The notes under the pieces: generated by a model
Databases searched by the model: none
What the model was told of the DNA's origin: nothing
What the model saw: only the letters and a program-made list of their open reading frames with translations
Origin: Flavobacteriales bacterium
GTDB lineage: Bacteria > Bacteroidota > Bacteroidia > Flavobacteriales_C > GCA-002722245
Direction: 5' to 3'
NCBI GenBank assembly: GCA_947444925.1
Contig: CANFBW010000018.1
Location: 1-55,052, forward strand
Length of the DNA stretch: 55,052 nucleotides
Translations under genes and position numbers: made by a program
Part shown: positions 20,193 through 52,365 of the stretch, one piece after another
Numbering within the stretch: the first letter of the stretch is position 1
How the letters are laid out: each line of letters opens with the position of its first letter

Positions 20193-21464
20193 ATGAAATT
20201 AACAAAAGCGCAAAAAGGATGGATACTCTTCGATTGCGGAAATTCAGCGTACTACCTCATCATCAACACCGCCATTTTTCCTATTCTTTTTGAAAACGTA
20301 GTGCACAACGGCACCACCGTATTTGGCAGTTCCATCAGAAGCAGCGAAGCACTATTTCAACTTACGATCTCCCTCTCCTACGCATTCATAGTTCTGCTGT
20401 CCCCCATTTTGAGTGGCATCGCAGATTACAGCAACAACAAAAAGTTTTTCATGCGTATGTTCACTACCATTGGTGCCATTGCTTGTTTCTCTCTTTACTT
20501 TTTCGACGCACAACATATTGAACTTGGGTTATTTGGCGCCGCTTTGGCGATGATAGGTTTCTCAGGATCATTGGTTTTTTACAATGCTTATCTACCCGAA
20601 ATCGCCACCCGCGAAGAACAAGATAAAATATCTGCGCTGGGCTTCTCAGCCGGATACGCGGGCAGCACCTTACTGCTCATAGCAATTATTGCAGTTGCAG
20701 CGCTATGTGAAGAACACGAACTACAGGTTTACGCTTTTGGATTTATTGCAGTTGGATTATGGTGGCTCGGCTTTGCGCAATACACCTTTCGCCATTTACC
20801 AAAAGACGAAGTGCTAAAGGTTTCGCTAACAAAAGCCCTGGGACACGGCATTGACGAACTCAAAAAAGTATGGGAACAAATCAAGAAAAATTCAGTGCTC
20901 AAAAAATTCATTGCCACTTATTTTTTCATAAGCATGGGTGTGCAAACGCTGATTCTAATTGCGCCACTGTTCGCCCTGCACAACTTAAAACTAAAAACAG
21001 CTGACCTCATCGTAATCATTCTGCTCATGCAAGCCATGGGGATTATAGGCGCTTGGGGCACAGCCAGACTATCGGCCAGCAAAGGAAATTTCAATGCCTT
21101 GTTTTTTCCGCTGATTATTTTCAGTGTGATTTGTTTTGCCGTACTTTTCATTCGCGATGCCAATTCATTTTACGTTCTTGGCGCATTAATGGGCTTGTCG
21201 ATGGGAGGTGTTCAAGCCCTAGCCCGATCGACCTACTCTAAACTTTTGCCCGAAACGCATGACCACGCTTCTTTCTTTAGTTTTTACGACATCGCCGAAA
21301 AAGTCGCCATTACGCTGGGCACATTGCTTACAGGCTTCATTGCCTATGCAACAAATGGAGCATCACAATATGGAATTGTGTCGCTTTCTTTGCTATTTTT
21401 GACAGCAGTTATTTTATTGAAATTTACGCAAATCGAAGCTCAAAAAAATGGAAGACCAATTTGA
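20193..21464 (+). CDS. MFS transporter, UMF1 (Atg22-like) family
   Basis: A 423-residue transporter with about 12 hydrophobic segments. The start KAQKGWILFDCGNSAYYLII is the hallmark of UMF1/Atg22-like major facilitator proteins, in which the W-x-x-x-D-x-x-N(S) motif opens TM1. Other MFS elements include GGVQALARSTYSKLLPE between TM10 and TM11. Yeast Atg22 exports amino acids from the vacuole; bacterial members are uncharacterised, so the substrate is unknown. The gene overlaps lhgO by 17 bp, so the two are translationally coupled. Confidence 0.88.
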   Translation: MKLTKAQKGWILFDCGNSAYYLIINTAIFPILFENVVHNGTTVFGSSIRSSEALFQLTISLSYAFIVLLSPILSGIADYSNNKKFFMRMFTTIGAIACFSLYFFDAQHIELGLFGAALAMIGFSGSLVFYNAYLPEIATREEQDKISALGFSAGYAGSTLLLIAIIAVAALCEEHELQVYAFGFIAVGLWWLGFAQYTFRHLPKDEVLKVSLTKALGHGIDELKKVWEQIKKNSVLKKFIATYFFISMGVQTLILIAPLFALHNLKLKTADLIVIILLMQAMGIIGAWGTARLSASKGNFNALFFPLIIFSVICFAVLFIRDANSFYVLGALMGLSMGGVQALARSTYSKLLPETHDHASFFSFYDIAEKVAITLGTLLTGFIAYATNGASQYGIVSLSLLFLTAVILLKFTQIEAQKNGRPI

Positions 21465-22665
21465 TATCATAATTGTTGGTGGAGGAATCGTGGGACTCGC
21501 TACTGCTTACCAATTCGCAAAAACATATCCCAACAAGACTATTGCCCTCATTGAAAAAGAAGACCACTTGGGAGGACATCAAACAGGCCACAATTCAGGC
21601 GTTTTGCATTCGGGCCTTTATTACAAACCGGGATCAAAAAAAGCAATTTTGTGTTTGGAAGGAAAAGAAGAGATGGTGGCTTTTGCAAAAGAACACAACA
21701 TTCCACACGACATTTGCGGTAAAATAATTGTCGCCACGGAAGCCAAAGAACTTGCCAATCTGGAAAAGATATATGCAAATGGGGTCGCCAATGCCACTCC
21801 CGGTATTGAAAAAATTGACGCGAAGCGCATCAAAGAAATTGAACCTTTTTGCGAAGGCATCGCCGGTATTTGGGTACCCAGCTCAGGCATCATCAACTAC
21901 CGCGCTGTTTCTGACAAATTGGGCGAGTTGATACTACAACAAAATCCAAAAAACAAGATTTTTCTTTCTGAAGAATGTAAAAAAATCACACAACAAGAAA
22001 GCATTTCAACGATCACTACCAATAAAAAAACACTACAAGCGAAAATAGTAGTGGCTTGCGCTGGACTCCATTGCGACCGTATTGCAACAAAAGACAACTT
22101 GAAAATAAATATGAAAATCGTGCCCTTCCGCGGCGACTACTACGAACTCAGCGACAAAGGGAAAAACAAGGTGCGCAATTTAATTTATCCTGTGCCTGAT
22201 CCTGATTTTCCCTTTCTCGGCGTGCACTTCACTCGCATGATTGACGGAAGTATTGAATGCGGTCCAAATGCTGTGTTCTCTTTCAAAAGAGAAGGATACA
22301 GCCGCACCGCATTTAGCTTGCGCGATGCATTTGAATCACTGACATATAAAGGATTGTGGATCTTGTTTTCCCGACATTGGAAACAAGGTATTGAAGAATA
22401 CAAGCGTGCCTTTTCAAAACGTTTGTTTTTAAAATCGTTGCAAAAATTAGTTCCATCGCTTGAATTGAACGATATTCAGCCTGCGCGCGCCGGAGTGCGT
22501 GCACAGGCTCTAGACAACAAAGGCGACATGATCATTGATTTTCGAATTGAATTTAATAAAAACCATGTTCATGTATTGAACGCGCCATCACCAGCGGCTA
22601 CCGCGTCACTGTCAATTGGTCGATACATTGTTGCCGAAATACAAAAGAAGAAACTCATTGAATAA
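21448..22665 (+). CDS. lhgO: L-2-hydroxyglutarate oxidase/dehydrogenase
   Basis: FAD-dependent enzyme of the DAO superfamily that oxidises L-2-hydroxyglutarate to 2-oxoglutarate, feeding electrons to oxygen or quinone. The 405 residues match the family. The dinucleotide-binding motif GGGIVG is at residues 11-16, followed by GHQTGHNSGVLHSGLYYKPGS. That segment, with VPFRGDYYEL and IQPARAGVRAQA near the C-terminus, is characteristic of LhgO/YgaF. It sits between a UMF1 transporter (17-bp overlap) and the GldN-like lipoprotein (2-bp gap). Confidence 0.94.
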   Translation: MEDQFDIIIVGGGIVGLATAYQFAKTYPNKTIALIEKEDHLGGHQTGHNSGVLHSGLYYKPGSKKAILCLEGKEEMVAFAKEHNIPHDICGKIIVATEAKELANLEKIYANGVANATPGIEKIDAKRIKEIEPFCEGIAGIWVPSSGIINYRAVSDKLGELILQQNPKNKIFLSEECKKITQQESISTITTNKKTLQAKIVVACAGLHCDRIATKDNLKINMKIVPFRGDYYELSDKGKNKVRNLIYPVPDPDFPFLGVHFTRMIDGSIECGPNAVFSFKREGYSRTAFSLRDAFESLTYKGLWILFSRHWKQGIEEYKRAFSKRLFLKSLQKLVPSLELNDIQPARAGVRAQALDNKGDMIIDFRIEFNKNHVHVLNAPSPAATASLSIGRYIVAEIQKKKLIE

Positions 22666-22667
22666 CC

Positions 22668-23222
22668 ATGACTACAAAACTGTTTTTATTTTCTGCGCTT
22701 GCCTTCCTTGTAGGATGCACTTCTTCGCCCGAGCAGCATGGCGATGTGGTCACTAAGGAAATTAACTACAACGCGTTTATTGGCGATCCTTTGGCAGAAG
22801 AAAGCACCTTTGAAATCGAAGCATTATCCGCCGACAACAGAAAAGAAATTTTAGAGCAATGGATAGGCGGCGTTTTCGAAGGAAAAATAAAAGCATACCT
22901 GCCTGTTCCAAAAGGAGAACGCCTACTAACAGCGCAAGAGATTGCCGACATACAATCAAAAAACGATACAGTATTTGAAGAAATTCCTGATCACCCAGGA
23001 GAAACAAAAGCAATTCCAATTGTACACAAATTCAACTACGATGGTGTGACACATGTGAAATTTAAAGAAGCTTGGTACTACGACGAAAGCACCAACCATT
23101 TTAGCAAGGAAGTCATTGCTGTTTGCCCACTTGTTAAAACCTTTGACGAAAGCGGAGAAGTGCGCGGACTCACTGCTTTATTTTGGATTTATTTCGACAA
23201 ACATTTACCTGAAGAAAAATAA
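22668..23222 (+). CDS. GldN/PorN-like lipoprotein
   Basis: A 184-residue putative lipoprotein: MTTKLFLFSALAFLVGC is a signal peptide with lipobox LVGC and Cys17. The C-terminal half resembles GldN/PorN, the periplasmic ring component of the type IX secretion system. VKFKEAWYYDESTNHF corresponds to the family's I-x-x-K-E-D-W-x-F-D region. It is followed by an IAVCPL analogue of the I-x-G-I-A-P motif and by a LFWIYFD segment equivalent to LFWIYYPE. It is shorter than GldN (about 300 residues) and, unlike true GldN, appears lipid-anchored and lies outside a gldKLMN cluster. The similarity was judged by eye. The M16 peptidase ATG begins 2 bp after its stop codon. Confidence 0.6.
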   Translation: MTTKLFLFSALAFLVGCTSSPEQHGDVVTKEINYNAFIGDPLAEESTFEIEALSADNRKEILEQWIGGVFEGKIKAYLPVPKGERLLTAQEIADIQSKNDTVFEEIPDHPGETKAIPIVHKFNYDGVTHVKFKEAWYYDESTNHFSKEVIAVCPLVKTFDESGEVRGLTALFWIYFDKHLPEEK

Positions 23223-23223
23223 G

Positions 23224-24459
23224 ATGCCTAAAGAATTTGAGATTTTTCAACTGTCTAACGGAATTCGAGTAATCCATCAAGAATATCCTTATAGTAACGT
23301 GGCACATTTGGGCATCATCGCCAATGCAGGTTCCAGAGATGAAACTGCTTACGAGCATGGATTGGCGCACTTTATAGAACATGTGATTTTCAAAGGAACG
23401 AGCACTAAAAAAGCCTTTCACATTTTAAATCAAATTGATTCAGTGGGTGGTGAACTCAATGCATACACCACCAAAGAAGACACCTGTGTTTTCGCTTCTT
23501 TCTTGCAAAAACATTTAGACAGTTCTATCGATTTACTCGCTGATATTTTTTTCAACTCGACCTTTCCCTTGAAAGAATTAGAGAAAGAAAAAATTGTAAT
23601 TGTCGACGAAATACACTCTTATCAGGACAGTCCACCCGATTTGATTTTAGACGAATTTGAATTGCTTCTTTTCCCAAAACACGCGCTGGGAAGAGATATT
23701 TTGGGCACCAAAAAATCACTTCAAAAATTCACAAAAAAAGACATTCAAACCTTTATCAAAAAACATTACACACAAAACAATGTTGTCATCAGCAGCATTG
23801 GAAATATTTCAGCTTCCGAACTTCAAAAAAAATTAGAAATACATGTTGGGAAATATGTTTTAGCCGACACGATAGAAAAAAAGATTCCGGCTATTCACGC
23901 AGTAAATTCACACAAAATAGCCAAACCCGAAACCAATCAGAGTCATTACATATTAGGCAATGCCGCTTATTCGCTGCAAGACAAGCGAAAAACCGCAATG
24001 ACTTTGCTGACCAATCTTTTAGGTGGTCCAGCGATGAACTCCAGACTTAACCTAGAGATTCGGGAGAAGCATGGACTTACCTATAACATAGAAGCCAATT
24101 ACAACCAATACAGTGACACAGGAATTTTTAATATTTATTTCGGAACCGATAAAAAAAACCTCAACAAAACCATTGAACTTGTTCAAAAGGAATTGAAAAA
24201 ATGCCGAGATAAAAAACTTACTGAATCTCAACTCAGTTCGGCAAAAGAACAAATCCTTGGTCAAATAACATTGGCGAATGAAAACCGCACCGGACTCATG
24301 CTTGCTTACGGTAAAAGTCTTGTAACCTACGGCAAAGTAGATTCCGTAAAACAGATTTACAATAAAATTGAAAAAATAACTGCCGCGGAGATACGTGAAA
24401 TTTCCAACGAAATATTTGATGTCAACACGATGAGCAGCGTGACCTACATTAACAGATAA
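23224..24459 (+). CDS. M16 family zinc metallopeptidase
   Basis: A 411-residue peptidase of the insulinase/processing-peptidase (M16B) type. The inverted zinc motif HFIEH is at residues 49-53, and the third ligand is expected near Glu129 in VIVDEIHSYQD. The C-terminal half has GGPAMNSRLNLEIREKHGLTY, the substrate-cleft motif. No signal peptide is visible, so it is probably cytoplasmic. I start at 23224 (MPKEFEIFQLSNGIRV); the longer frame from 23116 lies inside the GldN-like gene and is not conserved-looking. It ends the four-gene plus-strand unit and is followed by a two-way terminator. Confidence 0.93.
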   Translation: MPKEFEIFQLSNGIRVIHQEYPYSNVAHLGIIANAGSRDETAYEHGLAHFIEHVIFKGTSTKKAFHILNQIDSVGGELNAYTTKEDTCVFASFLQKHLDSSIDLLADIFFNSTFPLKELEKEKIVIVDEIHSYQDSPPDLILDEFELLLFPKHALGRDILGTKKSLQKFTKKDIQTFIKKHYTQNNVVISSIGNISASELQKKLEIHVGKYVLADTIEKKIPAIHAVNSHKIAKPETNQSHYILGNAAYSLQDKRKTAMTLLTNLLGGPAMNSRLNLEIREKHGLTYNIEANYNQYSDTGIFNIYFGTDKKNLNKTIELVQKELKKCRDKKLTESQLSSAKEQILGQITLANENRTGLMLAYGKSLVTYGKVDSVKQIYNKIEKITAAEIREISNEIFDVNTMSSVTYINR

Positions 24460-33790: not shown

Positions 33791-34830
33791 ATCTCTTTAT
33801 TTAAATGCGTTGAATACACGCTCCATTTATCAATTATATTTTGAAAACCTTCAGGTAAATCAGCGCTGAAATTAAGAAATGTTCCTGTAACTGGATGCTT
33901 AAACGCTAATGTTTTTGCGTGTAATGCTTGACCTGGAATCATTCCGAAACAATTCTCAACAAACTGTTTGTACTTTGCAAAGTTAACACCCTTCAATATT
34001 TTGTCGCCACCGTATTCAGGGTCATTGAACAATGGATGTCCTATGTGTTTGAAATGCACTCTGATTTGATGCGTTCTTCCTGTTTCTAATTTACATTCCA
34101 CCAAAGTAACATAAGTGAAGCGTTCCAAAACTTTATAATGGGTCACAGCGTGTTTTCCTTCTTCACTTCCTTCAGGATAAACTGCCATAACCTTTCTGTC
34201 TTTCATACTGCGACCAACATTTCCAATGATGGTGCCCTCATCGTCTTTCACATCACCCCAAACCAAGGCGTGGTAGCGGCGGTCAATCGTTCGGTCAAAA
34301 AATTGCTTTGACAAATGACTCAATGCAAAGTCGTTTTTTGCGATAACCATAGTACCACTTGTCAATTTATCAAGGCGATGCACCAATCCTGGACGCAATA
34401 CTTCTTTCGAAGGATTTGTTGCCAACTCATTAAAGTGGTATAACATGGCATTGACCAGTGTTCCGCTATAGTTACCATAACCGGGATGCACCACTAAACC
34501 AGCATATTTATAAACCACTGCCAAGTCGGCATCTTCATACAAAATCTCTATGGGAATATTTTCGGCGATTAACTCAATTTCTCGAGGAGGATAAGGCAAA
34601 ACAATAGAAACTTCATCGAAAGGCTTTACCTTATAATTGGATTTTACGGCCTTGCCGTTGACAATAATACTTCCTGCTTCCGCTGCATTTTGAATTTTTG
34701 TTCGCGACGTATTGTCTATACGATTGAGCAAAAACTTATCAATGCGCAACAATTGCTGACCTTTATCGGCAATGATCTTATAATGTTCAAAAAGCTCATC
34801 AGGCCTGTCGTCTTCTATCTCTTCTATCAT
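33787..34830 (-). CDS. RluA/RluD-family 23S rRNA pseudouridine synthase
   Basis: Isomerises specific uridines in 23S rRNA. 347 residues. An N-terminal S4-like RNA-binding domain (about 28-80, LRIDKFLLNRI...AAEAGSIIVNGKAVK) is followed by the catalytic domain. VHRLDKLTSGTMVIAK contains the catalytic Asp154, and GRTHQIRVHFKHIGHPLFND lies downstream. It is closest to RluD by layout (S4 plus catalytic domain). It overlaps both neighbours by 4 bp (T9SS cargo upstream, glycosyltransferase downstream). Confidence 0.94.
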   Translation of the reverse strand: MIEEIEDDRPDELFEHYKIIADKGQQLLRIDKFLLNRIDNTSRTKIQNAAEAGSIIVNGKAVKSNYKVKPFDEVSIVLPYPPREIELIAENIPIEILYEDADLAVVYKYAGLVVHPGYGNYSGTLVNAMLYHFNELATNPSKEVLRPGLVHRLDKLTSGTMVIAKNDFALSHLSKQFFDRTIDRRYHALVWGDVKDDEGTIIGNVGRSMKDRKVMAVYPEGSEEGKHAVTHYKVLERFTYVTLVECKLETGRTHQIRVHFKHIGHPLFNDPEYGGDKILKGVNFAKYKQFVENCFGMIPGQALHAKTLAFKHPVTGTFLNFSADLPEGFQNIIDKWSVYSTHLNKEI

Positions 34831-36995
34831 TGCACGATCAACTTATGAAATTCTACTTTACCACTTTCAGCGTAAACTATTTTGATGATGTACAAGCCTT
34901 CACTTTTGTTCGATAGATCAATGCTATTTCTCCCAGCTTGACAGTCATTTTTCGAGAGAACTCTTCCCTCTAAATCTAAAATCATGATTTCTGTTTTTTC
35001 TGCACAATCTATAAAAGCAATATGTTTTGCTGGATTAGGAAAGATTTGTGCCAGAGCAGCTTGTTCCACCACATTCGCAGGAAATACAACCGGTGCGCCT
35101 AGCACCGGCTCAAACATCACGCTGCCTGAAATATGTGAAGTATTCCAAGTATTTGAAGAAACAACGTAAAAAAACATCTTGTCGGCATTTGACGTGTTTA
35201 AATCCAAACCCACATTGATATAATCATTCGTTGTTTGTTTCCAACCGATACAAATGGTGTCTTTTACAAAAATCACTTTTCCGAAGGGATAATACAAATA
35301 TTTATTAATGCCTTTTATGCTGTCGGGCATATACTCAGTGCTTTCCAAAAGCAGGGTTCCAGGCTTTCCATTTGAATAATTCCATACACGCAGTGTAAAC
35401 GGAATTTGATAGTTACCCGAACCAATAACCTCATTGAAATAAATTTTAACACCGCGTAAACTATCTCCTTTGCTCTGAAGTATCGGAAATTTATACGCGA
35501 ATTCTGCACCAGCGTAATAAAAACCGTAACCAGCCTCAGCTGAACCATCGTCGTAGGCGTAACAATTCGACAACACCTGTGCAAAAACCATAGTGTCATT
35601 TCCCTTAAAATCATTTGACAATGGTGTATTCAGCGCGTATTGCACATTAAAAACCGCCGTATCATTTTCAGGAGAAGTGTACACAAAGGATCCATAATCC
35701 TCATCATACACATGCGCTAAACCTGGCTGTATTGCAGCACTTTGTGTTACCGCAGAATTGTATAATACACTTCCCTTTTCCTTGATATTCACTGCGAAAT
35801 CAGCATTTACATCCACATTAGAAATATTACGAACCAACGCTTCCGATGTACCCACCATTAAATTCCCTGCTGATTTAAAGTGATTCCACGGCACGGCGTA
35901 AAAACCATTGACCAATGTTTTAGGGGGATACACAAAAGTCATATCACTGCCATACGCATCATTGATGATTCTATTTTTGTCCAACTGCACGTAATCCAAT
36001 TGCCATTGGTCACGATTGCTTCCATCGGTGCCGAAACCTTCGATACTCGCAAAATTGAAAAATTTAAAACGAAAATTTTTATGAAAGAAAATGGGCAGTT
36101 CAACTTTTACATAAAACTTAAAAAAACTATCCGTCGCCCATGTATCCTTCGCTTTTGAACCCCATACTGAACGCCACATTCCGCTATTGTCCATAAAATG
36201 CAAAAGCAATGAATCCTTTTCCTCAGGCGCATCACCTCCAAAGCCTTTTGATTCAACGTAAAAACTCAAATACACATTGTCGGAAGCGGACAAACCCGAC
36301 AAATCAATAGGCTTCGAAACCAGTGAATCTCCCAGAAATTGAGTGCTGCTGGCGTTTGGATACAACTTTCCAATGTCGTTAATTGCATCAAAAGTGGCAA
36401 CACCAATACTTGGAGGATTAATGGGGTAATTAGCGTTCACAAAAACGCCTCTGCCGGTCCACAGTGAAGCATCGTCCTTCATGAAATAAAAAATATACTT
36501 GGTATTAGTGAGTGTGAGTTCCTTTAAAAATGTGGTGTCACTGCCATAAATGGAATACGAAGGCCATGCTTCAATAGTGTCTGCAACCGTTGCTGGATAT
36601 TGACTGGCATTGTACTGAATAATTTTAAACATTGAATTGGGTGCTATTTTGGTGCTGTCCAATTGGTATCTCCAAGTAGTATCCTTAGAATAAGCTATTG
36701 TATCAGGATGATTACCGCCCACAGAAAACGCATACTGCACAACAGTCGCGCTGACTTTTCCCGCTGAATCGCTGCTGTATACTTTTATGTTGTCGCTTGA
36801 AAAATCATCAAAAAAAGGCAAGGTCAAGGTGTTTAAATTGTACTCGAAGTGCTCGAAAACACCCACTGCAGAAGCGGCTTGCGCTTGATTAGCATTGGCA
36901 TGCAGTTGTGGATTTCCTTTTAACCCCAGCACCACTTCTTGCGCAGAAAGTGCTCCAAAAGCTAAAAACAAAAGAAAAACTAAAGTGCAGCGCAT
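34827..36995 (-). CDS. Secreted protein with T9SS type A sorting domain
   Basis: A 722-residue extracellular or surface protein. The signal peptide MRCTLVFLLFLAFGALSAQE is followed by a long beta-rich region without a recognised catalytic motif (aromatic and Asp-rich, e.g. WQLDYVQLDKN), resembling uncharacterised jelly-roll surface proteins. The C-terminal ~75 residues are a type A T9SS domain: IFPNPAKHIAFID, then IMILDLEGRVLS and SEGLYIIKIV, ending in HKLIVQ. The domain is removed after passage through the outer membrane. It sits between the PASTA gene and the pseudouridine synthase, overlapping the latter by 4 bp. Confidence 0.85.
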   Translation of the reverse strand: MRCTLVFLLFLAFGALSAQEVVLGLKGNPQLHANANQAQAASAVGVFEHFEYNLNTLTLPFFDDFSSDNIKVYSSDSAGKVSATVVQYAFSVGGNHPDTIAYSKDTTWRYQLDSTKIAPNSMFKIIQYNASQYPATVADTIEAWPSYSIYGSDTTFLKELTLTNTKYIFYFMKDDASLWTGRGVFVNANYPINPPSIGVATFDAINDIGKLYPNASSTQFLGDSLVSKPIDLSGLSASDNVYLSFYVESKGFGGDAPEEKDSLLLHFMDNSGMWRSVWGSKAKDTWATDSFFKFYVKVELPIFFHKNFRFKFFNFASIEGFGTDGSNRDQWQLDYVQLDKNRIINDAYGSDMTFVYPPKTLVNGFYAVPWNHFKSAGNLMVGTSEALVRNISNVDVNADFAVNIKEKGSVLYNSAVTQSAAIQPGLAHVYDEDYGSFVYTSPENDTAVFNVQYALNTPLSNDFKGNDTMVFAQVLSNCYAYDDGSAEAGYGFYYAGAEFAYKFPILQSKGDSLRGVKIYFNEVIGSGNYQIPFTLRVWNYSNGKPGTLLLESTEYMPDSIKGINKYLYYPFGKVIFVKDTICIGWKQTTNDYINVGLDLNTSNADKMFFYVVSSNTWNTSHISGSVMFEPVLGAPVVFPANVVEQAALAQIFPNPAKHIAFIDCAEKTEIMILDLEGRVLSKNDCQAGRNSIDLSNKSEGLYIIKIVYAESGKVEFHKLIVQ

Positions 36996-39850: not shown

Positions 39851-41785
39851 TTAGCGCACTACTAATTTTGTTATCTCAAGAGCATCAGCACCTATTGTTT
39901 GTATGTAGTAAACACCCGCTGACAATTGCGCTGTATTGATTACTACTTGATGCGTACCCGCAGCCAAAAATTGCGCCTCTGTTGAGAAAATTAATTTTCC
40001 TGAAACATCGTACAAATTGTTTGTTAATAAAGCCGCTTTGTTTAAAGCAATTACAATTGTTGCACTCGTTGTCGCTGGATTTGGGTAAACACTAACCCCC
40101 ATTGATTTTTCGACAAGCTCAACTACTTCGTTGCTGTAAGGCTTAGTATAATCAGCATTTTGCGGATTAAAATTACACCACACTTTTGTCCAATCATCCG
40201 ATGTTGTTTGCGTGCCAGAAAAAGCACCAACATAATTTGTTTTGGTAAAAAACGCACTCAATTTGGTGCTAGTTGCGGGCGCGAAGTTCGGCGCATTGTA
40301 ATTGGCAAACCAATTTGTTGTATCGGTATTGATTGGCAAAGTCGGATTAAACGGATACACTTTTCCGTTGCTGAAAGGATCTGCTTTGTTGAAATGCGAA
40401 AGATTCGTCATATAAGCAGGCAATGCCTTTGAATTATAACAAAAATCAGAAGAACTTGTTGGAACAAAATTCGGATTACTTGGGTTGAAAGGATTTTGCA
40501 ATTTGAAACCGTTTTGCGCATTTGCATATATTTTATTGTGGTGCTTGGCATTGCCAAACCATTGGAAAGGCCCTACATATGGAGCAAACGGACTACCCGT
40601 TGCAGTATCCGCCATAAGCGCTGTTGGCGTCAAATTACGAGCACCATCAATAACGTACATCACTTCTTTGCGTGGTACTGCTCCATTTGTTGGAATACCT
40701 GCAATTGCGACACCGTTTATTTGGCAAATTGAATCCTTAATATTTTCACTCGTTTTCGCATAAGTAGCCGAAGATTCGTCAATCAAAATACCTGCAGGGT
40801 ATCCAGAAATAATAGTGTTGATCAAACTCAAGGCACTTCCTCTTCTAATGTGCGCAGCGGCCACAAACTGAGGATCAAAAGCAGTAGAAGTTGGACTCAC
40901 AAGGGGGCCAATGATTGTTGCGTTTGCGAATACTGGTTTTGTCAAATGATTGGTATCAGATTTACCATTATTGGTACCCGATTGGTAGCTGTCCGATTCA
41001 AAAGCTTTAGAACCTGATTGGTCAGCAGAATAAGGGTCACGCAAAGAAACCACGAACTGATTGTTGCCCTGGTATCCGCAATCCATATCAAAATCGTCAT
41101 CCCAAGCCAAATGCGACACTAAATACTTTGCATTCACAGTTCCTCCAAACCATTCATAAGAATCGTCACCACTGTAGGACACCTGCACGTGATCTACCTG
41201 CGTGCCGTCACCCACACCGCAAAGCGTTAAGCCGTTTACCTCATTGTTTGGCGAAAATGCAACGCCCCCAAATTCAAGTCGAACATAACTCAATACCCCT
41301 GAGTTGTCATGAGGATCAATGCCGCCATACAATGAACGCGGTCCTCCTTCAACTTGCCCGAAACCAGCCGTCCAGTTCACCAATGATTTACCGCAAACAA
41401 TCAGTCCTCCCCAATCGCCATATGATCTGCTGCCTGCTGGCTGATTAGATGTAAAAACAATGGGGTGATTTACACTTCCTTGCGCCATTATTTTCGCTCC
41501 TCTTTCAATAACCAAAGTACCCTTTGTGTTTTTATCTCCTCTGATCACTACTCCTGAATCAATGGTCAATACTGTTCCATTAACGGCATAAACATAACCT
41601 TGCAAAAGGTATTGCTTGTCGTTTGTCCAGTGTACGTTTCCTGTAAGACTGTCTTTTACCGTAATTGTCGTTACCTGTGCTTCAGCCGCTGAGCTAAAGA
41701 CCAAACAAGCACTCGCCAATAAAAGCGCTTTGCCGGTAAGCTGTTTTAGTAATCCTTTTTTCATTGTTTTAGTTTTTATTTTCAT
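39851..41785 (-). CDS. Secreted right-handed repeat-like protein with T9SS type A sorting domain
   Basis: A 644-residue surface or secreted protein. The signal peptide (through SSAAEA) is followed by TLTIDSGVVIRGDKNTKGTLVIERGAKIMA and GDWGGLIVCGKSLVN. This beta-helix-like sequence belongs to a family I have seen beside TonB-dependent receptors in Bacteroidota. The C-terminal ~80 residues are a T9SS type A domain (VSVYPNPATTSATIVI, NLYDVSGKLIF, AGVYYIQTIG, ITKLVVR). Two ATG starts (residues 1 and 8) are possible. It lies about 320 bp downstream of a large TonB receptor on the same strand and probably has its own promoter. Confidence 0.85.
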   Translation of the reverse strand: MKIKTKTMKKGLLKQLTGKALLLASACLVFSSAAEAQVTTITVKDSLTGNVHWTNDKQYLLQGYVYAVNGTVLTIDSGVVIRGDKNTKGTLVIERGAKIMAQGSVNHPIVFTSNQPAGSRSYGDWGGLIVCGKSLVNWTAGFGQVEGGPRSLYGGIDPHDNSGVLSYVRLEFGGVAFSPNNEVNGLTLCGVGDGTQVDHVQVSYSGDDSYEWFGGTVNAKYLVSHLAWDDDFDMDCGYQGNNQFVVSLRDPYSADQSGSKAFESDSYQSGTNNGKSDTNHLTKPVFANATIIGPLVSPTSTAFDPQFVAAAHIRRGSALSLINTIISGYPAGILIDESSATYAKTSENIKDSICQINGVAIAGIPTNGAVPRKEVMYVIDGARNLTPTALMADTATGSPFAPYVGPFQWFGNAKHHNKIYANAQNGFKLQNPFNPSNPNFVPTSSSDFCYNSKALPAYMTNLSHFNKADPFSNGKVYPFNPTLPINTDTTNWFANYNAPNFAPATSTKLSAFFTKTNYVGAFSGTQTTSDDWTKVWCNFNPQNADYTKPYSNEVVELVEKSMGVSVYPNPATTSATIVIALNKAALLTNNLYDVSGKLIFSTEAQFLAAGTHQVVINTAQLSAGVYYIQTIGADALEITKLVVR

Positions 41786-46483: not shown

Positions 46484-49400
46484 CTATCTGATTAGCGTCA
46501 CATGCCCCATACGTTCCCCTGCTTTTTCGGTAAACGAATCGGTATAGTAAAGTTTCCAAACATATACATCAATCTCCGCATCTCTCATGGTATTGGTGCG
46601 CTTCCCATTCCATGGCTCATCTATTTTAGTTGACCTGAATATCAGCTCACCCCAACGATCAAAAATTAAAAACTCATAGTTGCCGCAATTGTTGCAGCCG
46701 TGGTTGGCGCCATAAGGAAAAAAAACTTCGTTTAAATTGTCACCGTTGGGCGAAAAAGCATTGGGCGCGTACAAAGTAAAAATATCTTTAATGTACACAT
46801 CGTGCTGCGTTGTATCGGCGCACATTGCATTTCGCGCAATCAAAGTCACTGGAACAGTATCTGTTTTGACAACAGTAAATACAATCGGAAATTCTGTATT
46901 GGTGGTATTGGATGTCGCAGGAAAACCTTTTGCTGTAAAATCCCACTCGAAAGTCGATGCATCAATAGATGTGTTTGTAAAATTAATTCGCGGATCGGCA
47001 GTGCTCGCCGGCGATGGATCAAAAGTAAATTCAGCAGTTGGCACAGAGGCAATCTGCACCCGCGCAGAAGCGCTGTCCATGCAGCCATTTTGAAACTGAA
47101 CAAACAACTCTGCTTTGTAATTTCCATCATTCGAATATAGATGTGATGTGGCGGCAGTTGGATTAATTACCACCGCCGAATCTCCATCTCCAAAACGCCA
47201 CAAAGCCGACACTACATTCGCTGAAGAACTATCTGCAAAATTGACTTTAAAAGGTGCACAACCACCCAACAATGGTTTCACATTTAAATCGGGAAGCGAA
47301 TCTATTTTCACCGAGATGCTGCTCGATGTTTGACACTGCGTGCCTTGCGTATACGTAATCACGTGCATGCCTGCTGGCGCGCCTTTCGGATTAAACAAGC
47401 CACTTGCATTCACCGCCGTTCCGCTAAAAAAACCATTGGGTTTTAAGGGATACAATTGCTGTGGCGGCAAATTCTGACAAAATGAAGTGGTGGCTAAAAT
47501 TGCAGCACTCACCGTATCGGTAACCACCACTGTAATAGAATCTTTGTCGGGACAGAAGCCACCGCTTCCTGTCAGTGTGTATTTCACTTTGAAGGTTCCA
47601 GCCGTTGTTGGTGTAAACAATCCTGAATTGCTTACCCCTGTTCCGCTCCAGGTTCCACCATTATTGATTGCTGTAATCTGCATCGGCGCATCATAAATAC
47701 ACAATGCCTGCGGACTTCCGGTGGTGATACTCGCATCTTCTCTTTCTACTATTGTGATGTCAATACTGTCCTTTGCACTGCACATTGCTGTGGCTCCCGA
47801 TACCGAGTACAATACTTTGTAGGTGCTGCCTGCCGTGGCCAGCGCTGGATTAAACTGTCCGCTGCTGTTTACCAATCCCGCTGTAGCACAAGTCCATGTT
47901 CCGCCCGGTGTGGAGTTTCCACTTTTTTGTATGGTGTACAATCCTGCGTCTTCACACACCGATGCTATGCTGCTGGTGAGGTTCGCTATCATTTGATTCA
48001 CTACATAAATGGTCATGGTATCTTGCACAAAGCAGGTTCCCGAAGTTTTGTAAGTGATCAAATGCGAACCAACTGCGGCGGTTGCTGCGGTGAAAGCTCC
48101 AGTGGCTGTGTTGGTAATGCCTGTTCCACTCCACGCTCCTGCGCTTGACGCTGCCTCTATTTTTAACGTCTGAATTGGATCGTTGAGACAAAACGGGCCT
48201 TGACCCATGGTGATTTTTGCGGTGTCGATGGACGATACGGTGATGAGCACACTGTCTGCTGCGCTGCAACCCAGCGTTGCTCCCGGCATCACATAATACA
48301 CTTTAAACACACCCGCTCCTGCTACTATTGGATTGAACTCCCCTGTGTTGGTTACCAATCCAGGTGTGGGGGCCGATAGCCATGTTCCGCCTGCGGTGCT
48401 ATTGCTGCTTAATCGTACTTGTTTTGTGCTTGCGTTTTTACACATCGTTGTGTCAGCGGTCACTATGTTCGTTATTTTTTGTCCTACTACTTTTACCGTG
48501 GCCGTGTCTTGCACCGGACAAGAACCGCTGGTTTTGTAAGTAATCAAATAGGAGCCCTGACCTACCGACGGATCAAAGGTTCCTGCTGCGCCATTGGTGA
48601 TTCCTGTACCGCTCCACGTTCCTGCGTTCGACACTAGCTCTTTGGCCAGGTTCACTGTGCCTTGTGACTGGCAGAATGGCCCTTGTCCCAATGTGATTTT
48701 TGCGGTGTCAATTGTCGTTACTGTAATCACCTTAAATGTAGTGTCTCCGCAGGATCCAGCCTTCATGTACCAAATGGTGTCCTTGCCAACACCTGCCAGT
48801 TTCGGATCATAATATCCAAAGTCGGCATCGGTAATCCCTTTGCCACTCGAGGCGCTAAACTTCCCGCCCAACGCAGTTACTTCAATAGTGTCCTTTGCTG
48901 CGTTGTGGCAATAAGATGATTTTTGGGAGGTGATGTTGAGCACCACACTGTTGGATACCGTTACAGAGATGTTGTCACTTTCAGGACAAACACCTGCCGT
49001 GGCATAGGTGAGGCTGTAAGTTCCATTACCTGTTGCCGGACTGAATACGCCCAGCCCGCTCACTCCAGTTCCACTCCAGACTCCACCAGTGGTGCTGCCC
49101 GAAGTGAGTTTCATGGTGTATGCAGGATCAACACTACAAAACGGTCCAGCTGGCAATATCTTCGCGCTATCGGTAGCATTTACAGTGATGCTGGTTGTTT
49201 TGCTATCTCCACATGTTCCGGAAATAGTATAGGTAATAGTGAATGTTCCTGCGCCAGAAACTTTAGCATCAAAAACTCCTGTTGCTGTGTTGGTAATGCC
49301 AGTTCCACTCCACACTCCACCTGCATCAGTGCCTGTTAAAGTTTTCGTCGCTGCATTCGCACACATCGGAGAAACAGCTGTAATCGCAGCATTCTTTCTT

Positions 49401-52225
49401 TGATTGATTTGCACTGTAATGGTATCGTGTGAGCTGCAACCATTGGCTGTTACGTTGCAATGAATTTGGTGAGATCCTGCGGAGTACGATGCCGGATTAA
49501 AACTATTACCCACCAACGCAGTTGCATCTACTTTCCAGGTTCCGCCTGTTGTGGCTGCTGCAAGATTTACTGCTGCATCGTTGCTGCAAAATGGCCCCAC
49601 CTGTGTGATGGTAGAATCGGGTATTGCATTTACAGTGATTGTTTTCATCGCAGAAGAATCTACACAACCGTTCAAGGTAGCAAGCACTTTGTAGTTGTGC
49701 GTGCCCACTGTTGTTAAACCTGCTGTTGCAGCCAATGTTCCTGTACCATCGTATTTCCATTGGAAAGTTGAGCTTGCTGTTGTTGCCGCTGTTAAAGTAT
49801 GTGCTTCGCCTTTGCAAAACGTGCTTTTATTAGGAGACACCGTAATTGTAGGAGTAGTTGGTTTAGCATTGATAGTAACCAAAACTTTATTGCTGATGGG
49901 TGATTCACCACTGCATGAAGCTGAGTTGGTTACTGTAGCCCAATAATTTTTAGTCGCCGCTGCCGCTGCGGAAACAGAATAGGTGGAAGCATTAGCACCG
50001 CCAATAGCACCATCATCATTGTACCACTGATAGGCAATGGTGCCGGTTGTTGCCACATTTTTAGTGGCAGTTAAAGTAATGTTAGAACTTCCTTCGCACA
50101 CCGTTGCTCCACCTGTCACCACCGGAGCCAGTTGAGTACAACATGATGTAATATTTACCAATTTACCTTTGATACATTTTAAAGCATTTCCTTCCTCATA
50201 GGTAGTCATAGAATAATCTACTGTTCTCCCCCCGTTAATCGTAACATTACCGGAAGAATACGATGAAGCCGTCAAAAGTCCGAAACTTGCTCCACTTGGC
50301 GCTGAAGTAATCACCACCGAATAGTTCCCGGCTGTAGTCAATTTCCAATCAGTAGGATTAATGGTCACGTTTTTTATTCCTGTACCTGTCACCACCTGAC
50401 TAAACGGAGTTCCTACCACTTGATTGCTACCGTTTCTAAGCTCAACTGTTAAGTTTCCAGAGTATGTGCCCCAAGTATACATCCCAACCACTAAAGAGTT
50501 AATCGTCGCACTACCCGCAGATAAAGTAATGGACGTGTTACCCGTAGCCGCTCCATTGTCTACGGCCGAACGGGTATCATTTATATTGGTTTGAGTTACT
50601 GTTCCTGTAGGTTGAACCCATACAGAAGTTAAATTCCCTGGATCATATGTTGCTCCATATCCTAAAAAAGTGCCGCCACCCGACGGATCGGCTGTGTACC
50701 AAGCATAATTTCCTGAGGTTGATCCTGTTCCGGTAACTACTCTTGAAGGACATGCAGCCAAAGTTCCATTGGCATTTTGATAAGGTTCCACCTCAACAAC
50801 AAATGGCACATCCTTTTGTCGACCACACTCATCGGTAACAGTAGCAGTTACATTGGTAGTTCCTGAATTGGTCATTGTCATTGTAAATGATGCGCCTCCA
50901 TTTTGACTGCCTGTGTTAGTCCCTGTTGCGACCCAATCAACATTGGCTGCTACAGAACCAGATACTGACAATTCAAATTTCACACTTTGACCTTTACAAA
51001 CTGATGTTTGACTTAGCTCCACACCATCGACCAACAATTTAGGTAGCGGAACAACCAATGACTTCAAGAAATTAGGCATGTCCATGTTAACAGCTTGGCC
51101 TTCAATTTTTGCGGTATTGTTGTCTTCGGCCGCAGCCTTGTACCAAGTTTTATCCACAACGCCACCGCCATTGGGATTTGTAATTCTACCAATGTAACCG
51201 GTTCCTAAATTTCCATAGGATTTTGGAGCGGCAAAATATATATTTCCATCGGGTGCCAATTGTAAATGCCCACCTCTCATTCCTCCGGTAACACCTAAAT
51301 CCACTGGAGTTCCCATACCTGCACCAGTCACCGCCATACGGTACAAGTGCCCCGGATTACTATCATCTTGTCCGGTAATTGCGTAAGCGTATTTTCCATC
51401 GGGAGAAAACTCCATACTGTAGGCCGAACTCAAGCCTGTAGTGATGGTATTTTTATGAGTAAACTGTCCGGTTTTAGCATCAAAATCAAACAACATGACC
51501 TTGTCACCCATGATGTAAGAGGCTTGTGTAAAGCAACTATTAAATTTCAAAGTGCCGATATCATCGTACTTAGGCGGCCACGTACCAATACAATCCAAAT
51601 TCGGTCCGGCATTCGAAGTACCAGCATTCGAAATTCCGCTTCCTGACACTGTAAACAATTGAAAACTATTGTTGCACAGTTGATGACTAATCAACCAATA
51701 ATCACTTGATACCGTTCCATCCGGATTTAATTTAGGAACACCCGTTTGACTTTGCGTTAAGTTGGCGGCCAAGTTAGCAGGACCAGTAATCGTTAAATTG
51801 CCCGATCCAGTTCCACTTGTTTTGATGGTGTAATACACTGCCATCGGTTTTGTTGACGCACCACTTCCATTTTTTAAAACCGTTAAATAATATTCATTCG
51901 TTTTTCCTGGAACCGGAATAACCATGGTGCCTTGCGATACATCCCAAGTAGCTGAGGGCAAATTTAATACATTGTTTTTACCCCCATCATACAAATTGTC
52001 GCCCACTACAGAAAACAACAACTTTCCGCTAGGATCTGTAATGGAAGTACTACTTTCCGTTAAATCAGCTCCGATGACAATTCCTGCACCAACAACGGCT
52101 GTGCCCGATGAAAAATTAATTGAAATATTATTCCCTAAAAACCAAACGTCCGCTTGGGCGCAAGCATAACCTGCGGAAATAAGACACAATGCTGCTGTAT
52201 AAAAACACTTTTTACAAAAGTTCAT
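46484..52225 (-). CDS. Giant secreted protein with tandem Ig-like repeats, PKD domains and T9SS type B C-terminal domain
   Basis: A 1,913-residue extracellular protein, likely an adhesin or gliding-associated surface filament. I start at 52225 (MNFCKKCFYTAALCLISAGYACAQ, a good signal peptide); the longer frame from 52315 adds 30 unlikely residues. N-terminal part: a beta-propeller-like region of the 'WFLGNNISINFSSG' type (about 20-420). A jelly-roll segment follows (about 540-680). Then come about twelve tandem Ig-like repeats of roughly 75-80 residues, each with the pattern PFC...GG.WSGTGI.N...G.F.P...G...I.Y...G.C...D. Two PKD-like domains (SALWRFGDGDSAVV) come before the type B domain with YAPNAFSPNGDNLNEVF and IFDRWGELIF. 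The promoter -7 box lies at 52251-52258. Confidence 0.9.
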   Translation of the reverse strand: MNFCKKCFYTAALCLISAGYACAQADVWFLGNNISINFSSGTAVVGAGIVIGADLTESSTSITDPSGKLLFSVVGDNLYDGGKNNVLNLPSATWDVSQGTMVIPVPGKTNEYYLTVLKNGSGASTKPMAVYYTIKTSGTGSGNLTITGPANLAANLTQSQTGVPKLNPDGTVSSDYWLISHQLCNNSFQLFTVSGSGISNAGTSNAGPNLDCIGTWPPKYDDIGTLKFNSCFTQASYIMGDKVMLFDFDAKTGQFTHKNTITTGLSSAYSMEFSPDGKYAYAITGQDDSNPGHLYRMAVTGAGMGTPVDLGVTGGMRGGHLQLAPDGNIYFAAPKSYGNLGTGYIGRITNPNGGGVVDKTWYKAAAEDNNTAKIEGQAVNMDMPNFLKSLVVPLPKLLVDGVELSQTSVCKGQSVKFELSVSGSVAANVDWVATGTNTGSQNGGASFTMTMTNSGTTNVTATVTDECGRQKDVPFVVEVEPYQNANGTLAACPSRVVTGTGSTSGNYAWYTADPSGGGTFLGYGATYDPGNLTSVWVQPTGTVTQTNINDTRSAVDNGAATGNTSITLSAGSATINSLVVGMYTWGTYSGNLTVELRNGSNQVVGTPFSQVVTGTGIKNVTINPTDWKLTTAGNYSVVITSAPSGASFGLLTASSYSSGNVTINGGRTVDYSMTTYEEGNALKCIKGKLVNITSCCTQLAPVVTGGATVCEGSSNITLTATKNVATTGTIAYQWYNDDGAIGGANASTYSVSAAAAATKNYWATVTNSASCSGESPISNKVLVTINAKPTTPTITVSPNKSTFCKGEAHTLTAATTASSTFQWKYDGTGTLAATAGLTTVGTHNYKVLATLNGCVDSSAMKTITVNAIPDSTITQVGPFCSNDAAVNLAAATTGGTWKVDATALVGNSFNPASYSAGSHQIHCNVTANGCSSHDTITVQINQRKNAAITAVSPMCANAATKTLTGTDAGGVWSGTGITNTATGVFDAKVSGAGTFTITYTISGTCGDSKTTSITVNATDSAKILPAGPFCSVDPAYTMKLTSGSTTGGVWSGTGVSGLGVFSPATGNGTYSLTYATAGVCPESDNISVTVSNSVVLNITSQKSSYCHNAAKDTIEVTALGGKFSASSGKGITDADFGYYDPKLAGVGKDTIWYMKAGSCGDTTFKVITVTTIDTAKITLGQGPFCQSQGTVNLAKELVSNAGTWSGTGITNGAAGTFDPSVGQGSYLITYKTSGSCPVQDTATVKVVGQKITNIVTADTTMCKNASTKQVRLSSNSTAGGTWLSAPTPGLVTNTGEFNPIVAGAGVFKVYYVMPGATLGCSAADSVLITVSSIDTAKITMGQGPFCLNDPIQTLKIEAASSAGAWSGTGITNTATGAFTAATAAVGSHLITYKTSGTCFVQDTMTIYVVNQMIANLTSSIASVCEDAGLYTIQKSGNSTPGGTWTCATAGLVNSSGQFNPALATAGSTYKVLYSVSGATAMCSAKDSIDITIVEREDASITTGSPQALCIYDAPMQITAINNGGTWSGTGVSNSGLFTPTTAGTFKVKYTLTGSGGFCPDKDSITVVVTDTVSAAILATTSFCQNLPPQQLYPLKPNGFFSGTAVNASGLFNPKGAPAGMHVITYTQGTQCQTSSSISVKIDSLPDLNVKPLLGGCAPFKVNFADSSSANVVSALWRFGDGDSAVVINPTAATSHLYSNDGNYKAELFVQFQNGCMDSASARVQIASVPTAEFTFDPSPASTADPRINFTNTSIDASTFEWDFTAKGFPATSNTTNTEFPIVFTVVKTDTVPVTLIARNAMCADTTQHDVYIKDIFTLYAPNAFSPNGDNLNEVFFPYGANHGCNNCGNYEFLIFDRWGELIFRSTKIDEPWNGKRTNTMRDAEIDVYVWKLYYTDSFTEKAGERMGHVTLIR
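47290..50130 (-). repeat. Tandem Ig-like coding repeats in the giant T9SS protein
   Basis: About twelve units of roughly 225-245 bp each. At protein level they recur as S/D-x-I-x-x-(G/S)-P-x-C ... GGxWSGTG(I/V)(T/S)N ... GxFxP ... GxC. Neighbouring units alternate between two subtypes: one begins DTAKITxGQGPFC, the next begins with I-x-N-I/L and has PGGTW or AGGTW. The two-unit pattern suggests growth by duplication of pairs. Each unit has a Cys pair that could form a disulfide. Confidence 0.75.
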
Positions 52226-52250
52226 AAACCAATACAAGTTAAGTAGTAAG

Positions 52251-52258
52251 CAAAAGTA
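52251..52258 (-). promoter_or_regulatory. -7 element for the giant T9SS protein gene
   Basis: On the minus strand TACTTTTG (52258-52251) matches TAnnTTTG, 25 bp before the ATG at 52225. A TTG (52277-52275) lies 16 bp further upstream, slightly closer than the usual 19-21 bp. Confidence 0.55.
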
Positions 52259-52365
52259 ATAAAAGGACTTTAGCCAAGCCACTTTTAGTAAATAATATAC
52301 CCCCAAGTAAAACAAAGAGAAAGGACGATTGTTACAAGTGCAAAAAAAAATCTACTTTTACACTA

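Follow-up and report, generated by a model that had tools for sequence, protein, structure and literature searches.

A short lipoprotein from a side branch of the GldN family in Bacteroidia

The locus and its lipoprotein gene

The window, that is, the whole stretch of DNA analyzed here, is a 55,052-nucleotide contig (C18) of the Flavobacteriales bacterium assembly GCA_947444925.1. The gene under study lies between lhgO and an M16 peptidase gene, with the following features.

21448..22665, + strand: lhgO (L-2-hydroxyglutarate oxidase), upstream neighbor; NCBIfam, 521 bits
22668..23222, + strand: lipoprotein gene encoding a stand-alone GldN core; ORF, 184 aa
22668..22718, + strand: signal peptide and lipobox LVG|C, the last codon (22716-22718) being Cys17; from the sequence and the alignment of 25 family members
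22821..23204, + strand: GldN core domain, residues 52-179, matching PorN 59-197 (9ots numbering)
23224..24459, + strand: M16 family peptidase, downstream neighbor; Peptidase_M16 and M16_C domains, 119 and 123 bits

The ORF starts 2 nt past lhgO, and the ATG of the peptidase gene lies 1 nt past its stop codon, the placement reported in the initial annotation. The lipobox proposed there is borne out by a signal peptide ending in LVG|C, with the Cys at residue 17 and invariant in all 25 aligned family members. That the protein is lipidated, and which side of the membrane it faces, are predictions from these features. The residues following the Cys differ among orthologues, and we therefore make no claim of a surface-export signal. 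Comparison with two congeners gives dN/dS values of ∼0.09 and ∼0.10, so that the gene is under purifying selection. The neighboring peptidase has the HxxEH motif (as HFIEH) together with both M16 domains, and no evident signal peptide; judging from its N-terminus it is therefore probably cytoplasmic, which makes direct contact with a secreted lipoprotein unlikely.

The GldN core and what it lacks

GldN belongs to the bacterial type IX secretion (T9SS) and gliding machinery, as a subunit of the ring or track that is held to the outer membrane by GldK. Against the Pfam GldN family PF19841, the 184-aa protein scores 51.2 bits (E 1.7e-13) over profile positions 29-148 of 228, well above the curated cut-off of 23 bits, whereas its score against the NCBIfam GldN equivalog TIGR03523, 28.6 bits, does not reach the cut-off of 85.9. 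The protein is therefore a member of the GldN superfamily but not GldN by the NCBIfam standard. When PDB chains were compared with a profile built from seven orthologues, only PorN/GldN chains were matched (E 1e-7), in agreement with the homology first noticed. The accompanying statement that the C-terminal half of the protein matches GldN holds in part: KEAWYYDE, the CPL motif, and LFWIYFD all fall within the matched stretch, but what is matched is the middle of GldN, its core, and GldN's own C-terminal part is missing.

The AlphaFold2 model of the protein is of moderate quality (mean pLDDT 71), with blocks from residue 61 to 180 averaging 77-90. Below 0.001, Foldseek returned PorN alone (9ots, 7pvh, 9mzu). 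The TM-scores of these matches are only ∼0.4, and the assignment to the fold therefore rests on sequence and structure jointly. VIA-align gave a Z of 7.2 to 7pvh across 110 residues; its first non-PorN row has a Z of 4.4, and the rows at 4.4 and less include 3na2 and ChuX. With both programs, the only confident structure matches are to PorN.

The structural work on PorN makes clear what the lipoprotein does without. On PorN, the binding sites for PorK are an N-terminal helix with a loop reaching W47 and, at the C-terminal end, a helix-bearing segment at ∼249-281; D220 is cross-linked to PorK, the loop at 235-236 locks neighboring PorN copies together, and A241 is cross-linked to PorM, which is also modeled on PorN loops 4 and 6 and as docking between two PorN copies, while GldK has an FGE-like fold (PMC12421860). 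We take the 9ots numbering as that of PMC12421860, since the ranges 25-281 and 45-239 given there amount to 257 and 195 residues, the chain lengths of 9ots and 7pvh. In the structure alignment, the 184-aa protein, correctly described at the outset as shorter than GldN, terminates at the equivalent of PorN ∼197, so that D220, loop 235-236, A241, and the C-terminal PorK-binding segment are all absent. At the other end, a lipobox and a linker stand where PorN has its first helix, in a region where the alignment with PorN is too weak to judge any remnant of the W47 loop. The protein's own lipid would then take the place of PorK as its link to the membrane. We conclude that the 184-aa protein is very probably a lipoprotein from an old branch of the GldN family, with the GldN core as its sole folded domain.

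In the same genome, contig C32 carries a complete gldKLMN operon (GldK, 558 bits; GldL, 207; GldM, 274; and a full-length GldN), and the lipoprotein gene, on C18, is thus outside this cluster, as originally supposed, and is not encoded beside gldKLM. We also observed a second full-length GldN on C5 (175 bits; G000:C5, L033:1669-5718), convergent to genes for a 550-aa protein and a 460-aa protein with weak PorG-like and OmpA-like parts. The same layout is seen again in G003 (L035) and G004 (L040), and it is possibly an accessory T9SS locus. An orphan second GldM (259 bits) lies on C13, distant from gldKLMN (G000:C13, L039:5398-6999), and the window itself encodes T9SS substrates, namely, type B and type A sorting-domain proteins at 46484-52315, 34827-36995, and 39851-41785.

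Distribution, phylogeny, and gene neighbors

In a class-wide search of 395 genomes, in which many short GldN-like ORFs were listed and the loci were then read, proteins of ∼174-205 aa with a single GldN core were found in at least 34 genomes from 10 bacterial families, nearly all with a recognizable lipobox. Two genomes of an eleventh family (f31) encode tandem proteins of ∼470-490 aa with two GldN domains, a signal peptide, and a Cys (L124:746-3704, two side by side; L125:1035-2513). The lipoprotein is missing from most of the T9SS-bearing genomes sampled. The matches listed for family f32, some of whose genomes have no GldM, are full-length GldN or weak partial hits, with no short lipoprotein among them. 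A 343-aa secreted protein in G001 (L036:5025-6056) has two GldN-like matches, lacks a lipobox, and forms a very long branch.

A tree of the core domain splits the lipoproteins and tandem forms from the ring GldNs with support of 90/93, rising to 98/91 when four very long branches are removed; in the latter tree the single-domain lipoproteins form one side of a branch (99/97). Since the alignment is short (∼130 columns) and the root unknown, the tree shows one group and not the direction of change. The subclades track bacterial families, which argues for vertical inheritance. The named loci from the scan are MAGs of Flavobacteriales or Bacteroidetes. The literature searched holds no description of a GldN that is lipidated or stands alone. 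In a draw of 394 further genomes from the phylum, most of them well finished, no short lipoprotein form was listed among the best eight candidates per genome, which may explain the silence of the literature. It appears that a lipid-anchored GldN branch without the ring-assembly parts is unnamed in the libraries and papers searched; the fold itself is known.

The gene's neighbors vary between families and are mostly enzymes. An M16 gene lies directly 3′ of the lipoprotein gene in 7/7 loci of the source's bacterial family, across two genera and either 1 nt apart or with a few-base overlap, but beside no lipoprotein gene of any other family among the loci read; lhgO is kept only in genus g1. The cluster is thus conserved within the family as far as M16 is concerned, and the link to the peptidase, proposed in the initial annotation, fails as a general rule. 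A similar M16, often followed by an O-methyltransferase, also occurs in genomes in which no lipoprotein was found, including one without GldM. The apparent lack of the lipoprotein gene in G004 may reflect the position of its M16, at the end of a contig. Across families, the more persistent neighbor is an O-methyltransferase of one family, which is found on the same strand, no more than four genes downstream, at 11 loci from four bacterial families; in genus g2, M16 sits between it and the lipoprotein gene. An M20 peptidase gene precedes the lipoprotein gene in f4 and f46, and a carotenoid-isomerase-like gene is upstream in 4/5 loci of f10. In f23, 6/6 loci have a PorE-like OmpA/PD40 gene immediately adjacent and divergent. 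The f23 product that was tested scores 260 against a PorE cut-off of 600, and slightly higher to CHU_0125, so "PorE-like" is the limit of its naming. Such PorE/CHU_0125-like OmpA-PD40 genes are present at L118, L119, L122, L097, L100, and L101, as a tandem pair in three of these.

Possible roles and comparison with known systems

The 184-aa protein is not the GldN ring subunit but a side branch of the GldN family in Bacteroidia, and two readings of its role are about equally likely, because it lacks the residue through which PorN was cross-linked to PorM. According to one, which we regard as plausible though short of an even chance, it is a lipoprotein of GldN fold whose envelope role has nothing to do with T9SS, a duplicate of long standing in which the fold survived while a different binding function at the outer membrane was acquired. 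The loss of the ring-assembly parts and of the known PorM contact, the ordinary metabolic neighbors in most families (M16, M20, O-methyltransferase, carotenoid-isomerase-like), and the patchy occurrence among T9SS-bearing genomes are all consistent with this; against it, carriers have T9SS genes as far as tested, and PorE-like genes adjoin the lipoprotein gene in f23.

The reading that we put forward, tentatively, is that of an accessory to the T9SS/gliding energy chain; we prefer it for offering a definite mechanism that can be tested, not for any clear lead in probability. The lipoprotein would be held by a lipid of its own rather than through GldK, with the GldN core tethered to the outer membrane and facing the periplasm. 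It could dock at the tip of GldM or at the edge of a GldKN ring or track, and there it would act as an accessory (adaptor, brake, or cap), not as part of the ring itself. In favor of this reading, with its putative contact with GldM or GldN, are the homology to GldN, the PorE-like neighbors in f23, and the tandem forms in f31; PorN A241, the sole cross-linked PorM contact, is missing from the lipoprotein, and its family-dependent, mostly enzymatic neighbors likewise count against an accessory role. GldM matches are more numerous in families with the lipoprotein than in those without (means of 2.7 vs 1.5, one genome per family; Mann-Whitney p 0.001), in a post hoc comparison that is not corrected for kinship and counts split hits twice. 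GldM was found in every carrier examined except for one genome that is 60% complete; since GldM is near universal (378/395 sampled genomes), its co-occurrence with the lipoprotein says little. A bolder form of the accessory reading, which we think unlikely, has the lipoproteins as a second, lipid-anchored GldN class docking on the GldM motor without GldK, as an extra attachment to the outer membrane in the form of a brake, a clutch, or a non-ring track. If this is true, the proton-driven T9SS/gliding motor gains another outer-membrane attachment, and the tandem versions are a ready-made GldN pair.

Other explanations fare less well. It is very unlikely that the lipoprotein and the M16 peptidase work as a unit, with the former as the peptidase's lipid-anchored partner: the tight adjacency at all seven loci speaks for it, but it is confined to one bacterial family, and M16 also occurs in genomes without a found lipoprotein and lacks an evident signal peptide. 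A shortened but otherwise ordinary GldN, still built into the GldK ring, would share the same fold core; the failure to reach the NCBIfam cut-off, the missing C-terminal PorK-binding parts, the full-length GldN encoded beside gldKLM in the same genome, and the separate clade make this very improbable. A decaying gldN copy without function, to which the reduced length might point, can practically be dismissed, as it is contradicted by the low dN/dS, by the lipobox kept in 25 aligned members, and by clades that track bacterial families.

What the locus documents is an old, separately inherited branch that kept the GldN core, dropped the ring-assembly parts, and has its own lipobox, which suggests a use for the core beyond the ring. 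The branch provides a small protein with which binding partners of the GldN core could be sought. If annotated by Pfam alone, such lipoproteins would be labeled GldN, and T9SS ring genes would be miscounted in uncultured Bacteroidia.

Among known systems, GldN/PorN (PF19841, TIGR03523; PDB 7pvh, 9ots, 9mzu, 9myj) shares with the lipoprotein the core fold (PorN 59-197) and the motifs around KEAWYYDE, CP, and RGxxxLFW; the lipoprotein differs in its own lipobox, its separate clade, and its lack of the C-terminal PorK-binding helix, the PorN-PorN locking loop, and the cross-linked PorM contact. GldK/PorK (TIGR03525), the lipoprotein of the T9SS ring, is likewise lipid-anchored and related to T9SS ring parts, but the 184-aa protein has no match to GldK families. 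The extra full-length GldN copies (on C5 and in several f1 genomes) are likewise GldN paralogues outside the main operon; unlike the lipoprotein, they retain the C-terminal part, score above the family cut-off (175 bits), and cluster with the ring GldN.
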